This document shows positions 32,086 to 37,583 of a stretch of 47,046 nucleotides of DNA, in pieces. The notes under the pieces are model-generated. The model was not told where the DNA came from, ran no database searches, and worked only from the letters and a program-made list of their open reading frames with translations. Both the position numbers and the translations under genes were made by a program. Origin of the DNA: Pseudomonadota bacterium. Lineage in GTDB: Bacteria; Pseudomonadota; Alphaproteobacteria; SP197. The stretch spans positions 1 through 47,046 of the forward strand of contig JAQCLG010000011.1 of the NCBI GenBank assembly GCA_027592745.1. Direction: 5' to 3'. How positions within the stretch are numbered: the first letter of the stretch is position 1; the number at the start of each line of letters is the position of its first letter.

Positions 32086-32334
32086 ATGAGCAGCGACAAC
32101 GCGGCTATCGCTAGGCTCGGCAAAGCGATCACACGGTTGGAAACATCGGTGGCGCGGCTTGTCGAGGCCGGACAGGGCGAAACCATCGCCAAGCTCGAGG
32201 CGGAGAATCGACGCCTGAGCGAGGAACTTGCGGCAGCAACCGGCGGCCAGCAGGCCCTTGAGGGGCGCGTGCGCGACGTGTCGGGCCGCCTGGACGGCGT
32301 CATCGGGGAACTCAAGACGGTGCTGGGACGCTGA
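32086..32334 (+). CDS. Small coiled-coil protein upstream of zapA (DUF4164-like)
   Basis: An 82-residue all-helical protein: IARLGKAITRLETSVARLVEA, then AKLEAENRRLSEELAAATGG, then RVRDVSGRLDGVIGELKTVL. Heptad spacing predicts a coiled coil. Small proteins of this kind precede zapA in alphaproteobacteria; their function is not established, though division is a natural guess. ATG 32086 is chosen as the start of the helical repeat; an earlier in-frame start at 32032 would add basic residues without a ribosome-binding site. One base separates it from zapA. Confidence 0.78.
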   Translation: MSSDNAAIARLGKAITRLETSVARLVEAGQGETIAKLEAENRRLSEELAAATGGQQALEGRVRDVSGRLDGVIGELKTVLGR

Positions 32335-32335
32335 C

Positions 32336-32650
32336 ATGGCGCAGGTGACGGTGCAGATCAACGGCCGCAGCTACCAGGTGGCATGCGGCGACGGCGAGCA
32401 GGACCGCATCACGGGCCTGGCCGGCTACGTTGACGAGAAGGTCCAGGAACTGGTGGGCGCGATCGGCAATGTCGGCGACCAGCGCCTGCTGGTCATGGCC
32501 AGCCTGCTGCTGGCCGACGAGGTCTTCGAGGCGCGCGACGGCGGTGCCGCCAACGGCAAGGCCGCCGCGGCCGAACGTGCCCGCGCCGACAGCATCGAGG
32601 CGCTGGCCGAACGCATCGACCGCCTTGCCGCGAGGCTGGAGAGCGCCTAA
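32336..32650 (+). CDS. zapA: Cell division protein ZapA
   Basis: A 104-residue ZapA. VTVQINGRSYQVACGDGEQDRI starts the globular head, LVMASLLLADEVFEA is the conserved dimer region, and the C-terminal helix (SIEALAERIDRLAARLES) is the coiled coil. ZapA bundles FtsZ filaments at the division site. ATG 32336 lies right behind the stop of the preceding small gene. Its TAA stop (32648-32650) is also the first half of the -10 element of the 6S RNA promoter. Confidence 0.9.
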   Translation: MAQVTVQINGRSYQVACGDGEQDRITGLAGYVDEKVQELVGAIGNVGDQRLLVMASLLLADEVFEARDGGAANGKAAAAERARADSIEALAERIDRLAARLESA

Positions 32651-32653
32651 CTA
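32625..32653 (+). promoter_or_regulatory. Promoter of 6S RNA inside the 3' end of zapA
   Basis: TTGCCG (32625-32630), a 17-base spacer and TAACTA (32648-32653). Initiation about 7 bases later, near 32660, coincides with the 5' end of the closing stem of 6S RNA. Confidence 0.65.
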
Positions 32654-32659
32654 AGAGAG

Positions 32660-32833
32660 GTGAGGCGGATTTCTGCCTGGTGCGTGATCCGCATACTTTC
32701 CTGGGGCCAATGTCTTTTTCCAGGGAGCTGGCTCTGTCGAGAGTGTTGCTCTCGTTACCCGGCGCCCACCTGCTGACGCAGGCCACGGTGAAAGATGCAA
32801 TCGGTTGACGGCCGAGGTGGTGCCGCTTCACAA
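32660..32833 (+). ncRNA. ssrS: 6S RNA (RNA polymerase-binding regulatory RNA)
   Basis: The region lies between zapA and the 5-formyl-THF cyclo-ligase, the standard proteobacterial site of ssrS. GTGAGGCGG (32662-32670) pairs with GCCGCTTCAC (32822-32831), allowing G-U pairs, to close a long hairpin. CGAGAG-TGTTG-CTCTCG (32738-32754) is a perfect apical stem. The length of about 174 fits. 6S RNA mimics an open promoter and holds housekeeping RNA polymerase in stationary phase. Only 8 bases separate it from the next start codon. Ends are estimates. Confidence 0.85.
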
Positions 32834-32841
32834 CGCTCCCC

Positions 32842-33417
32842 ATGAGCATCCAAGACGACAAGGCGCGGTTGCGCGCCTGGGCCCTGGAGCGCCGTCCGGC
32901 GCTGCACGCGGCCCTTCCCGAGGCCGGGCAGAAGGCCTGCCGCCATTTCCTGACCCGGATCGGCTTTCCCGCCGGGGCCGAGATCTCGGCCTACCTGCCG
33001 GTCAGGGACGAGTTCGACGTCATGCCCTTTGCCTATACGGCGCATGCCTTCGGCCACCGGGTCGGCATGCCGGTGGTGCTGGGCAAGGACAAACCCCTGC
33101 AGTTCCGCGAGTGGACGCCCGACACGGTGCTGGAAGCAGGCACGATGGGCATCCCGATCCCGCCGATCGATGCCGCGCTGATCATGCCGCGCCTGCTGCT
33201 GGTGCCGCTGATGGCCTTCGACACGCAGGGCTACCGGCTGGGCTACGGCGGCGGCTTCTACGACCGCACCCTGGCGACGCTGCGGCTGCTGGAGCCCGAG
33301 ACGCTGGCGGTGGGCGTCTGTTACGCCGGCCTGGAAGTCGATGCTGTGCCCCACGACGGCTACGACCAGCCGCTCGACTGGATCGTTACGGAAGAGGGCG
33401 CGCGCGCCTTCGTCTGA
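32842..33417 (+). CDS. fau: 5-formyltetrahydrofolate cyclo-ligase
   Basis: A 191-residue cyclo-ligase. LRAWALERRPAL starts the fold, ISAYLPVRDEFD follows, and the signature LVPLMAFDTQGYRLGYGGGFYDRTL includes the nucleotide-binding G-Y-G-G-G-F-Y-D-R. It converts 5-formyl-THF to 5,10-methenyl-THF with ATP. ATG 32842 has no recognisable ribosome-binding site; the bases upstream belong to 6S RNA, suggesting processing or joint expression as at E. coli ssrS-ygfA. The CocE paralogue 3 begins 75 bp downstream. Confidence 0.95.
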   Translation: MSIQDDKARLRAWALERRPALHAALPEAGQKACRHFLTRIGFPAGAEISAYLPVRDEFDVMPFAYTAHAFGHRVGMPVVLGKDKPLQFREWTPDTVLEAGTMGIPIPPIDAALIMPRLLLVPLMAFDTQGYRLGYGGGFYDRTLATLRLLEPETLAVGVCYAGLEVDAVPHDGYDQPLDWIVTEEGARAFV

Positions 33418-33492
33418 GGCTCTCCCCATTGTCCGCTTGTCGGTCACCATGCCAAGGTGCGCTCCGCCAATGACCGTGGGGGATGCTGCCAG

Positions 33493-35508
33493 GTGGACAA
33501 GCCGCTCGAACCGAAGATCGTGACCGCCTATCCGCACAAGGTGCGCGAGATCGAGCACATGTGGGTGCCGATGCCCGACGGCACCCGCCTGTCGGCCAAG
33601 GTCTGGCTGCCGGAAGATGCCGACGACCATCCGGTACCCGTGATCCTGGAGTACATCCCCTACCGCAAGCGTGACGGCACGCGGGCGCGCGACGACACCA
33701 TGCATCCCTGGTGGGCCGGCCACGGTTATGCCTGCGTGCGCCTCGACATCCGCGGCACCGGTGAATCCGAAGGTGTCATCACCGACGAATACACCGCCCA
33801 GGAACTGCAGGACGGCTTCGACGCCATCGCATGGCTGGCCGCCCAGCCCTGGTGCGCGGGCACGGTGGGCATGACCGGCATCTCCTGGGGCGGCTTCAAC
33901 GGGCTGCAGATCGCGGCCCTGCGGCCGCCGGCCCTGAAGGCCATCGTGACGCTGTGTTCGACCGACGACCGTTATGCCGACGACGTGCATTTCATGGGCG
34001 GCACGATCACGCTGGACAACTGGTTCTGGGGTGCCGGCTTCTTCCAGTTCATGGCCCGCCCGGGCGACCCGGAGATCCAGGGCGAGCGCTGGCGCGAGCA
34101 GTGGCGGCAGCGGCTGGAGCAGTGGGAGCCGGTCGCCTCGACCATCTGGCTGCAGCACCAGCGGCGCGACGCCTACTGGAAACACGGCTCGGTGTGCGAG
34201 AACCACGGGGACATCACCTGCGCGGTCTATGCCGCGGGCGGCTGGGAGGACGGCTATTCCAACGCCATCCCGCGCCTGCTGGCCAACCTGAAGGGACCGC
34301 GCAAGGGCCTGGCCGGTCCCTGGGGCCACAAGTACCCGCATATCGGCGTGCCCGGCCCGGCGATCGACTGGATGCACGAGAGCCTGAAGTGGTGGGACCA
34401 CTGGCTGAAGGGCATCGACAACGGCATCATGGACGAACCCATGTACCGGGTGTGGATGCGCGAACCCAGCGTGCCCGATGCCATGCTGCAGATGGCAAGG
34501 GGCCGCTGGGTCACCGAACCCTCCTGGCCCTCGCCGCGCATCGGCGCGCGTTCCTGGACGCTGCTGGCGCAGGGCAACGATCCGGTGACGGTCAAGGCGC
34601 GCCAGACCGTGGGCAGCGCCGCGGGCAACTGGTGTCCCTACGGCCTGGGCGGCACGGGCCCCGACCTTGCGGTCGACCAGAGCGAGGACGACGGCCGGTC
34701 GATCGCCTTCGAATCGGCGCCCTTCGACGAACGCTTCGAATTCATGGGCCAGCCGGTCGTGAAGCTGAAGGTCTCGGTCGACAAGCCCCAGGCCTTCCTG
34801 GCGGTGCGCCTGGTCGATGTCGCACCCGACGGCACGGCCGCGCGGGTGACCTACCAGCTGCTCAACCTGACCCACCGCAACGACCACGAACACCTCGACC
34901 CGATCCCCGTGGGCGTGCCGATGGACGTGGAGGTCCACCTCAACGACATGGCCTGGTCGTTCCCGGCCGGCCACCGGCTGCGCGTCGCGGTCTCGACCGC
35001 CTACTGGCCGGTGATCTGGCCCTCGCCCGAGGCGGTGGCGCTGACCGTGTACGCCTGCGACCTGACGCTGCCAGAGCGCAAGCCGCAGGCCGACGACGGC
35101 GGCGACCCCTTCGGCCCGCCCGAGATGGCGACGCCGACGGTGCGCACGGTGATCGAACCGGGCCGCTCGGCGCGCACCGTGACGCGCGACCTGATCACCG
35201 GCGAGACCGTCACCGACCAGGTCGAGGAACATGGCGTGTGGCGCTACGACGCCATCGATCTCATCTGCTCGGAAGGGCTGACCGTGCAGTACCGCATCAA
35301 GGACGACGACCCGCTCTCGGCCGTGGCGCGCTGGGAGGCCCATTCCAGCCGCATGCGGGAGGGCTGGGACATCGAGGTCAGGAGTTCCTACACGGTGCGC
35401 GCGACGCGGGAGAACTTCCTGGTCGATGCGGTGTTGGAGACCTGGGACGACGGCAAGCCCTTCTTCAGCCGGACATGGAGCCATACGGTGCCGCGCGACG
35501 GCGTCTGA
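33493..35508 (+). CDS. CocE/NonD family serine hydrolase (paralogue 3)
   Basis: About 671 residues. The likely triad is Ser131 (GISWGGFNG), Asp253 (GGWEDGY) and His279 (GPWGHKYP). The jelly-roll domain follows and the C-terminal extension ends HTVPRDGV. GTG 33493 is chosen because the next residues (DKPLEPKIV) align with the start of paralogue 4, and GGGGGA lies about 10 bases upstream; a GTG at 33457 would add 12 residues. It is closest to paralogue 4, 23 bp downstream, indicating tandem duplication. No signal peptide. The 909-codon frame on the opposite strand (32755-35484) is a composition shadow. The substrate is unknown. Confidence 0.9.
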   Translation: MDKPLEPKIVTAYPHKVREIEHMWVPMPDGTRLSAKVWLPEDADDHPVPVILEYIPYRKRDGTRARDDTMHPWWAGHGYACVRLDIRGTGESEGVITDEYTAQELQDGFDAIAWLAAQPWCAGTVGMTGISWGGFNGLQIAALRPPALKAIVTLCSTDDRYADDVHFMGGTITLDNWFWGAGFFQFMARPGDPEIQGERWREQWRQRLEQWEPVASTIWLQHQRRDAYWKHGSVCENHGDITCAVYAAGGWEDGYSNAIPRLLANLKGPRKGLAGPWGHKYPHIGVPGPAIDWMHESLKWWDHWLKGIDNGIMDEPMYRVWMREPSVPDAMLQMARGRWVTEPSWPSPRIGARSWTLLAQGNDPVTVKARQTVGSAAGNWCPYGLGGTGPDLAVDQSEDDGRSIAFESAPFDERFEFMGQPVVKLKVSVDKPQAFLAVRLVDVAPDGTAARVTYQLLNLTHRNDHEHLDPIPVGVPMDVEVHLNDMAWSFPAGHRLRVAVSTAYWPVIWPSPEAVALTVYACDLTLPERKPQADDGGDPFGPPEMATPTVRTVIEPGRSARTVTRDLITGETVTDQVEEHGVWRYDAIDLICSEGLTVQYRIKDDDPLSAVARWEAHSSRMREGWDIEVRSSYTVRATRENFLVDAVLETWDDGKPFFSRTWSHTVPRDGV

Positions 35509-35531
35509 ACGATTTTGCAGGGGATAGAGGC

Positions 35532-37583
35532 ATGATGCTGGTGCAGGCGACCGAGCCGAAGGTGGTGCGCGACTTTCCGCACAAGGTGCGCGAACTGGAA
35601 CACGTCTGGGTGCCGATGAGCGACGGCACGCGGCTTTCGGCGCGCATCTGGATGCCCGAGGATGCCGAGACCAGGCCGGTACCGGCGATCCTGGAATACA
35701 TCCCCTACCGCAAGCGCGACGGCACGCGGGCCTGGGACGATCCGCGCCATCGCTGGTGGGCCGGCCACGGCTATGCCGCGATCCGTCTCGATATCCGCGG
35801 CACGGGCGAAAGCGAAGGCACGATCACCGACGAGTACACGCCCCAGGAACAGGCCGACGCCGTCGAGGCGATCGCCTGGATCGCCGCCCAGCCCTGGTGC
35901 ACCGGCAAGGTCGGCATGACCGGCATCTCCTGGGGCGGCTTCAACAGCCTGCAGGTCGCCGCCCACCGGCCGCCGGCGCTGAAGGCGATCATCACGCACT
36001 GCTCGACCGACGACCGCTATGCCGACGACGTGCATTTCATGGGCGGCTGTCTGCTGATCGACAACTTCTTCTGGGGTTCGGGGTTCTTCGAGTTCATGGC
36101 GCGCCAGGGCGATCCCCTGATCCAGGGTGAGCGCTGGCGCGAGCAGTGGCTCGCGCGTCTGGAAAGCTGGGAGCCGGTCGCCGCGACGATCTGGCAGCAG
36201 CACCAGCGGCGCGACGCCTACTGGAAGCAGGGTTCGGTCAACGAGAACTACGGCGACATCACCTGCGCGGTCTATGCCGTGGGCGGCTGGGCCGACGGCT
36301 ATTCCAATGCCATCCCACGCATGCTGGCCAACCTGAAATGCCCGACCAAGGGGCTGGTCGGACCTTGGGGCCACAAGTACCCGCAGGATGCGATTCCGGG
36401 GCCTTCCATCGGCTGGATGCAGGAAAGCCTGCGCTGGTGGGACCACTGGCTGAAGGGTGCCGAGAACGGCATCATGGAGGAGCCGGCCTACCGCGTGTGG
36501 CTCGACGAGCCCCAGGCGCCCGACGCCTGCCTGGCGATGTCCCAGGGGCGCTGGGTGACCGAACCGGCATGGCCCTCGGCCAACATCGGCGAGACGGTGC
36601 TGCATCTCAACGCCGACGGGCTGGCGCCGAAGAAACGGCGCTCGACCATGCTCGAACACAGCACGCCGCTGATCATGGGTGGGGCGAGCGGCGTCTGGTG
36701 CCCCTACGGCCTGGGCGGTTCGAGCCCGGATCTGGCGGGCGACCAGCGCGAGGACGACGCCTGTTCGCTGTGTTTCGACACGGCGCCGCTGGACGAACGG
36801 CTGGAGGTTCTGGGCGCGCCGGTGGTGAGGTTGCGGCTGGCCATCGACAAGCCCCAGGGCATGGTTGCGGTGCGGCTCAACGATGTTGCACCCGACGGCA
36901 GTTCGCTGCGGGTTTCCTTCGGCCTGCTCAACCTTTCCCATCGCAAGAGCCATGAACACCCGCGCGCGATGAAGCCGGGCGCCATGGTCGATGTCGACGT
37001 GCAGCTCAACGACCTGGCGCACGCCTTCCCCGCCGGCCATCGCATCCGCATCGCGGTTTCGACGAGCTACTGGCCGATGGCCTGGCCGTCGCCCGAAAGG
37101 GTGACGATGACGCTGGCGACCGGGCGCAGCACGCTGGCCCTGCCGGTGCGCGCGCCGCGTGCGGAGGATGCCCAGGTGCCGGCATTCGAGGCCCCGGAAA
37201 TGGCACCGATGCCAGAGATGGAAGAGATCGCGCCCGCCGTGGGCACGCGCCATGTCGAGCGCGACATCGCAACGGGCGAACAGATCGTGCGGGTCGTGGA
37301 GGATGGCGGCGTCACCCGCTATCCCGCGCTCGACCTGGTGGCGGCGGACGGGGCAAGCGTCGATCTCGCCATCACGGAGGGTGACCCGGCCTCGGCGCGC
37401 GGAACCTGGCGCTGGCACAGCCGGCGCACGCGCGGCGCGTGGGACGTGACGACGACCTCGCAGATGACGGTGACGGTATCGGAGGAAGCCTTCCATATCG
37501 CGACCGACCTTGAAGCCTTCGAGGGCGACAAGCGCATCTTCGCGCGCAGGTGGAACCACGACGTGAAGCGGGATCACCTGTAG
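35532..37583 (+). CDS. CocE/NonD family serine hydrolase (paralogue 4)
   Basis: A 683-residue hydrolase. Ser133 (GISWGGFNS), Asp255 (GGWADGY) and His281 (GPWGHKYP) are the likely triad. The C-terminal extension ends RRWNHDVKRDHL, changed from the PRDG of the other three. The start has ATGATG at 35532, with GGGGA and GAGG upstream. It lies in an apparent operon: 23 bp after paralogue 3 and 36 bp before an SDR, followed by a beta-lactamase-fold hydrolase. The neighbouring enzymes suggest stepwise processing of one compound, but the sequence does not reveal it. Confidence 0.9.
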   Translation: MMLVQATEPKVVRDFPHKVRELEHVWVPMSDGTRLSARIWMPEDAETRPVPAILEYIPYRKRDGTRAWDDPRHRWWAGHGYAAIRLDIRGTGESEGTITDEYTPQEQADAVEAIAWIAAQPWCTGKVGMTGISWGGFNSLQVAAHRPPALKAIITHCSTDDRYADDVHFMGGCLLIDNFFWGSGFFEFMARQGDPLIQGERWREQWLARLESWEPVAATIWQQHQRRDAYWKQGSVNENYGDITCAVYAVGGWADGYSNAIPRMLANLKCPTKGLVGPWGHKYPQDAIPGPSIGWMQESLRWWDHWLKGAENGIMEEPAYRVWLDEPQAPDACLAMSQGRWVTEPAWPSANIGETVLHLNADGLAPKKRRSTMLEHSTPLIMGGASGVWCPYGLGGSSPDLAGDQREDDACSLCFDTAPLDERLEVLGAPVVRLRLAIDKPQGMVAVRLNDVAPDGSSLRVSFGLLNLSHRKSHEHPRAMKPGAMVDVDVQLNDLAHAFPAGHRIRIAVSTSYWPMAWPSPERVTMTLATGRSTLALPVRAPRAEDAQVPAFEAPEMAPMPEMEEIAPAVGTRHVERDIATGEQIVRVVEDGGVTRYPALDLVAADGASVDLAITEGDPASARGTWRWHSRRTRGAWDVTTTSQMTVTVSEEAFHIATDLEAFEGDKRIFARRWNHDVKRDHL

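Follow-up and report, generated by a model that had tools for sequence, protein, structure and literature searches.

In Escherichia coli the gene for 6S RNA, ssrS, lies between zapA and fau (ygfA), and the accessible parts of the published work describe a dicistronic ssrS-ygfA transcript and its processing (PMC7641849, PMC2848244). The order zapA-6S-ygfA is likewise already reported for other Proteobacteria in the portions available of two papers (PMC9788540, PMC7641849). Here we describe the corresponding locus of an alphaproteobacterium (Pseudomonadota bacterium, GTDB Alphaproteobacteria; SP197), contained in a window of 47,046 nt, by which we mean the whole stretch analysed (contig JAQCLG010000011.1 of assembly GCA_027592745.1, positions 1 to 47,046, forward strand). 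The gene order and strand are those of E. coli, and fau is without a Shine-Dalgarno sequence in both. The spacing differs: in E. coli the zapA stop (TGA) is followed by ssrS after 41 nt and ssrS by fau after 75 nt, whereas the two distances are 9 nt and about 8 nt here. In addition, the zapA stop codon of the window lies inside the putative -10 element of the 6S promoter, unlike that of E. coli. With a probability of about 0.87, we read the locus as a 6S RNA gene in zapA-ssrS-fau order that has its own housekeeping-type promoter within the 3'-terminal part of zapA, an interpretation made from sequence.

Other described systems share parts of this arrangement. The beta- and gammaproteobacterial order zapB-zapA-ssrS-(fau)-EVE, as given in the accessible text of PMC7641849, has in common with the window the position of 6S after zapA, a coiled-coil gene before zapA and fau after the RNA. 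The 6S RNA of Sinorhizobium meliloti (sra56) is preceded by a sigma-70 promoter candidate with a 17-nt spacer, as in the window; the same 2007 survey, in the part of it at hand, reports no conserved 6S neighbours or synteny among the rhizobial and Brucella genomes compared (PMC2245857), whereas 6S sits between zapA and fau in all 15 loci of the window's family. We found no description of a zapA stop codon as part of a 6S promoter in the open-access papers searched. The RNA and the gene order are thus already known; what appears to be new is the class-wide, sequence-constrained reuse of the zapA end as a promoter.

A 6S RNA between zapA and fau

The original prediction placed a 6S RNA between zapA and the cyclo-ligase gene and named an Rfam covariance-model search as a check. 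This search returned RF00013 at 32667-32827 with 48.6 bits, narrowly above the cut-off of 46.4, and it was the only match found in the genome (3.85 Mb assembly, 99% complete). A lineage model (R1), trained on 15 same-family 6S loci including the window sequence itself, scores 165.9 bits and widens the RNA to the predicted 174 nt listed in Table 1, from which both RNA ends are model-based estimates. The 174-nt fold has an energy of -80.7 kcal/mol, which none of 200 shuffled sequences equalled (z -4.0), and all 9 positions of the closing stem are paired.

Closing stem, central bubble and terminal stem are present and kept by compensatory change, as judged from fold and covariation together. Across 54 distinct relatives, two-sided changes occur in 32 of 47 pairs, including 4 of 4 modelled closing-stem pairs, and 91.6% of pair cells hold standard pairs. 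When the pairs were slid along the alignment, standard pairs fell to 39-47% and two-sided changes to 16-19, and the covariation score of 0.479 fell to 0.066-0.081. The alignment, being fitted to the model, favours the structure, yet the slid controls lie far below these values. Within the GTDB family, 15 of 16 genomes have a 6S match, although the Rfam cut-off is exceeded in only 5 of the 16 and 10 of the 15 matching loci fall below it (an order-wide genome search gave the same 16 genomes). The predicted RNA is thereby borne out by Rfam match, covariation and the constant zapA and fau flanks in the family, and it is itself an ordinary member of the 6S family. Further afield, among 80 named fau loci of Alphaproteobacteria, R1 detects 6S before fau in 55, and fau stands behind 6S in 150 of 158 loci, 55 of which were reached via fau.

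The end of zapA as probable 6S promoter

Codon -8 of the window's zapA is CTT (32624-32626). Its last two bases and the following G form the TTG of the putative -35 hexamer TTGCCG; a spacer of 17 nt leads to the putative -10 hexamer TAACTA, the first half of which is the stop codon. The 6S promoter would thus occupy the last eight zapA codons and the stop codon. The hexamers stand about 17 nt apart and end about 7 nt before the predicted start, the geometry of a housekeeping (sigma-70-type) promoter. A lineage-specific promoter matrix built on 58 loci of other families gives the site 18.2 bits, a score that no other position equals among 616,576 positions in 309 kb of the same genome.

Table 1 Features of the zapA-6S-fau region, in window coordinates.
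Feature	Position	Strand	Remarks
DUF4164 / ZapB-like coiled-coil gene	32086..32334	+	PF13747, E 1.3e-10
zapA	32336..32650	+	PF05164, E 4.6e-21; stop TAA 32648-32650
putative -35, TTGCCG	32625..32630	+	TT is the last two bases of zapA codon -8
putative -10, TAACTA	32648..32653	+	begins with the zapA stop TAA
6S RNA (ssrS), predicted, ~174 nt	32660..32833	+	RF00013, lineage model R1 and fold
closing stem 5' arm, GTGAGGCGG	32660..32668	+	pairs with 32823-32831 in the fold
closing stem 3' arm, CCGCTTCAC	32823..32831	+	pairs with 32660-32668 in the fold
linker from predicted 6S 3' end to fau ATG, 8 nt	32834..32841	+	no Shine-Dalgarno sequence
fau (ygfA), 5-formyltetrahydrofolate cyclo-ligase	32842..33417	+	PF01812, E 4.2e-30

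The riskiest claim of the original prediction was that the 6S -10 element includes the zapA TAA, and this was put to a comparative test that was capable of failing. Loci in which zapA ends no more than 14 nt before 6S were classed as overlap-type. A first set of 70 loci combined the 15 family loci with the 55 named ones (of the 80 fau loci, the 25 in which the 6S model found nothing were dropped), and zapA was recognised in 56. A class-wide genome search then gave a 6S match in 199 of 289 genomes; from these a second, separate set was taken outside the window's family, in which 18 of 106 loci were dropped as near-duplicates, leaving 88 loci, 80 of them with zapA. Over both sets, 22 of 158 loci were without a recognised zapA and were left out of the promoter counts.

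In the first set, 25 of the 56 loci with zapA are overlap-type, and 24 of the 25 carry TTG exactly 23 nt before the zapA stop (stop-23). Their stops are TAA in 21 cases, TAG in 4 and TGA in none, whereas TGA ends 20 of the 31 non-overlap genes. The second set gave the same picture, with TTG at stop-23 in 58 of 62 overlap-type loci and stops distributed as TAA 38, TAG 24 and TGA 0; these 58 loci span 45 GTDB families. The claim therefore passed. Taken together, 82 of the 87 overlap-type loci have their TTG at exactly stop-23. TTGC is almost fixed and the TA of the stop completely so, and 68 of the 87 loci have a T as the second base past the stop.

Such a pattern could also stem from the ZapA protein, if TTG-N17-TA merely recorded a conserved Ile/Leu-Ala near its end and the 6S RNA were processed solely from transcripts of a promoter upstream of zapA. 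An [ILV]-A pair does occur in several zapA genes whose end lies far upstream of 6S, and read-through from zapA into 6S is possible because no terminator was found between them. Conservation of the protein would, however, leave the wobble base free, yet where the codon carrying the -35 is of the form NTN, it has a final T every time (82 of 82); elsewhere in these genes 252 of 2075 NTN codons do. The bias is present in each set, with NTT at codon -8 in 24 of 24 NTN cases (ATT or CTT) against 55 of 594 in the first and in 58 of 58 against 197 of 1481 in the second; for Ile codons alone, the second set has ATT in 39 of 39 against 62 of 229. Within the window's family, the six overlapping loci all have NTT, whereas the nine others are mixed at the matching codon (CTG, ATG, GTG and ATC besides CTT and ATT, with one mismatched placement). 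Neither does a protein constraint account for the absence of TGA from all 87 overlap-type loci, where TAA or TAG is used throughout.

The motif also keeps its distance from 6S where it lies outside zapA: TTG-N16-18-TA is present at this position in 25 of 71 loci that are non-overlap or without zapA, compared with 0-3 at nine shifted anchors. Moreover, the exceptions L018 (first set), L170 and L217 keep the TTGC motif, followed 17 nt later by a candidate -10, and only their stop has shifted, by a few codons; this points to conservation of the promoter and not of the protein end. Taken with the wobble bases, these observations make a purely protein-based origin of the motif highly improbable. 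Among 30 6S loci examined in non-alphaproteobacterial Pseudomonadota, 26 have zapA, in some cases ending within 14 nt of 6S, and TTG at stop-23 was found in 0 of the 26, unlike the window. Double use of the zapA end as 6S promoter thus appears, from these comparisons, common to many alphaproteobacterial families.

Several points weigh against a promoter in the zapA end. A generic sigma-70 scan of E. coli type does not call the site, because the -10 agrees with TATAAT, the E. coli consensus, at only 2 of 6 positions; none but the lineage-specific matrix recognises it. The 106 loci of the second set were the best-scoring R1 loci outside the window's family from the 199 genomes matched. Fisher p-values overstate the significance of the counts because the loci are related, and the spread over 45 families is the safer measure. 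TTG is missing from stop-23 in 5 of the 87 overlap-type loci. Finally, zapA ends 42-106 nt upstream of 6S in 9 of the 15 family loci, so the overlap of zapA and promoter is not obligatory.

Under the favoured reading of a promoter in the zapA end, the housekeeping sigma factor and polymerase would bind there and start transcription near 32660, where the closing stem begins. By analogy with the family, the 6S RNA would fold as a mimic of an open promoter and sequester housekeeping RNA polymerase in slow growth. Its 3' end would arise by processing or trimming of a longer RNA, as reports on E. coli have it; processing of the E. coli RNA is said to have been treated by Chae in 2011 and by Kim and Lee in 2004.

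The junction of 6S RNA and fau

The predicted distance of about 8 bases between the RNA 3' end and the fau ATG agrees with the lineage model, which leaves 8 nt from its end and 10 nt from the closing stem. Of the proposed overlap of three functions within a few bases, the zapA/promoter part is literal, whereas fau merely abuts the 6S gene. Among the family loci the gap is 2-14 nt in 12 of 15 (script-assigned starts). Over both sets, 8 of 158 loci have no recognised fau, and a start could be assigned in 147 of the remaining 150; some of these script-assigned starts are uncertain, and four that fall 19-39 nt inside 6S are probably wrong. The gap is at most 30 nt in 70 of the 147 loci, with a median of 33 nt. 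In L010, L012 and L015 the start codon lies 2 nt past the closing stem, so that a mature 6S RNA with any 3' overhang would share bases of the fau start.

A missing ribosome-binding site at fau, also foreseen, is real: the Shine-Dalgarno energy of +0.9 is weaker than that of all 34 open reading frames (ORFs) with unambiguous starts in 309 kb of the same genome, 9 of which have a Shine-Dalgarno tetramer. It is an ordinary trait nonetheless. A tetramer precedes fau in 14 of 147 loci behind 6S (zapA, 76 of 136), leaving 133 without one; fau genes with no detected 6S have it in 1 of 25, an imperfect control in that most of these 25 start at or near the end of the upstream gene, as judged by eye, and the E. 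coli gene has none. We therefore rejected the missing sequence as a special feature of fau behind 6S; since it is missing whether or not 6S is present, and from E. coli as well, it is a habit of fau or of the class. In Caulobacter, 75.4% of genes are without a Shine-Dalgarno sequence, according to the portion available of PMC4117421.

The 25 of 80 named fau loci with no 6S near fau by R1 or Rfam (e.g. L030, L049 and L074) are mostly from Rhodobacteraceae. In many of them fau starts at the very end of the upstream gene, which has a conserved hydrophobic C-terminus (by eye).

Expression of fau would most likely occur by read-through from the 6S or the zapA promoter, because neither a terminator nor a fau promoter was found between 6S and fau; the generic sigma-70 scan used for the promoter also misses that of 6S. 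For fau alone, and compatibly with a 6S promoter in the zapA end, one may instead consider a leaderless or near-leaderless message freed by the cut at the 6S 3' end, such that 6S maturation gates fau. The narrow gaps fit this idea, with 8 nt in the window, 2 nt in the three loci named above and a tetramer in only 5 of the 70 loci with gaps of at most 30 nt, as does the stable 9-pair stem ending 10 nt before the ATG. However, the tetramer is equally missing from 24 of the 25 loci with no 6S and from E. coli with its 75-nt gap, the gap holds no conserved sequence or pyrimidine tract and its length is highly variable, and exonuclease trimming of the 6S 3' end would destroy the fau message and not release it. 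On balance we consider such a release rather unlikely. A separate promoter for a leaderless fau was rejected, there being no -10-like base enrichment at the required spacing before fau, and a pyrimidine-rich linker was dropped as well (mean pyrimidine content 0.60 over 72 loci, compared with 0.54 for 48 spacers between zapA and 6S; p 0.13).

Translational coupling of fau to a short ORF inside 6S, with its stop on the fau start (ATGA overlap), was also considered. The window does contain a 16-codon ATG ORF whose TGA begins one base into the fau ATG, but such an ORF exists in only 14 of 98 loci tested and the peptides are unrelated. The idea, barely credible on these counts, was dropped.

Neighbouring genes and significance

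The coiled-coil gene directly 5' of zapA may be an alphaproteobacterial counterpart of zapB, because it matches the ZapB profile weakly; PF16326 and PF06005 (ZapB, E 0.001) are both below their cut-offs for its product. A profile search of the genome shows the window's fau to be the single PF01812 match of the whole assembly. Two tandem X-Pro dipeptidyl-peptidase (CocE/PepX-like) genes follow 3' of fau (33457-37583). The first (33457-35508) matches PF02129 and PF08530, and the second, judged by eye, is the similar C-terminal part of the ORF at 33831-37583.

Three to five 6S matches per genome were seen in G305, G307, G313, G319, G322, G331, G335, G339 and G364, which are not Alphaproteobacteria; all except G305 belong to family f166 and measure 2.3-3.1 Mb, and several of the matches are below the Rfam cut-off. 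In the alphaproteobacterial G197 (5% contamination), 6S matches lie on separate contigs (C74:16671-16841 and C114:11754-11922), by duplication or through a mixed assembly.

A more far-reaching possibility is that zapA, 6S and fau form a single regulatory device, in which zapA transcription occludes the 6S promoter and 6S cutting releases fau. Both the occlusion and the release are speculative, and we regard the device as decidedly improbable. If it were true, transcription of zapA over the 6S promoter would block 6S during growth, and silence of the division genes would free it; the freed 6S would halt housekeeping transcription, and cleavage of that RNA would release a near-leaderless fau message. 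Division, global transcription and folate recycling would then be tied by sequence overlap across much of the Alphaproteobacteria.

A promoter in the zapA end explains both the avoidance of TGA and the NTT codon eight codons from the end of these zapA genes. In at least 45 GTDB families, the closing codons of a protein gene and its stop would also serve as promoter for a global regulatory RNA. This is a clean example of dual coding, and the constraint behind it shows in the wobble bases. It also provides a simple rule for 6S promoters missed by generic scans, namely a TTG 23 nt before a zapA TAA or TAG, and the old puzzle of what keeps zapA, 6S and fau linked becomes open to test by single synonymous changes.
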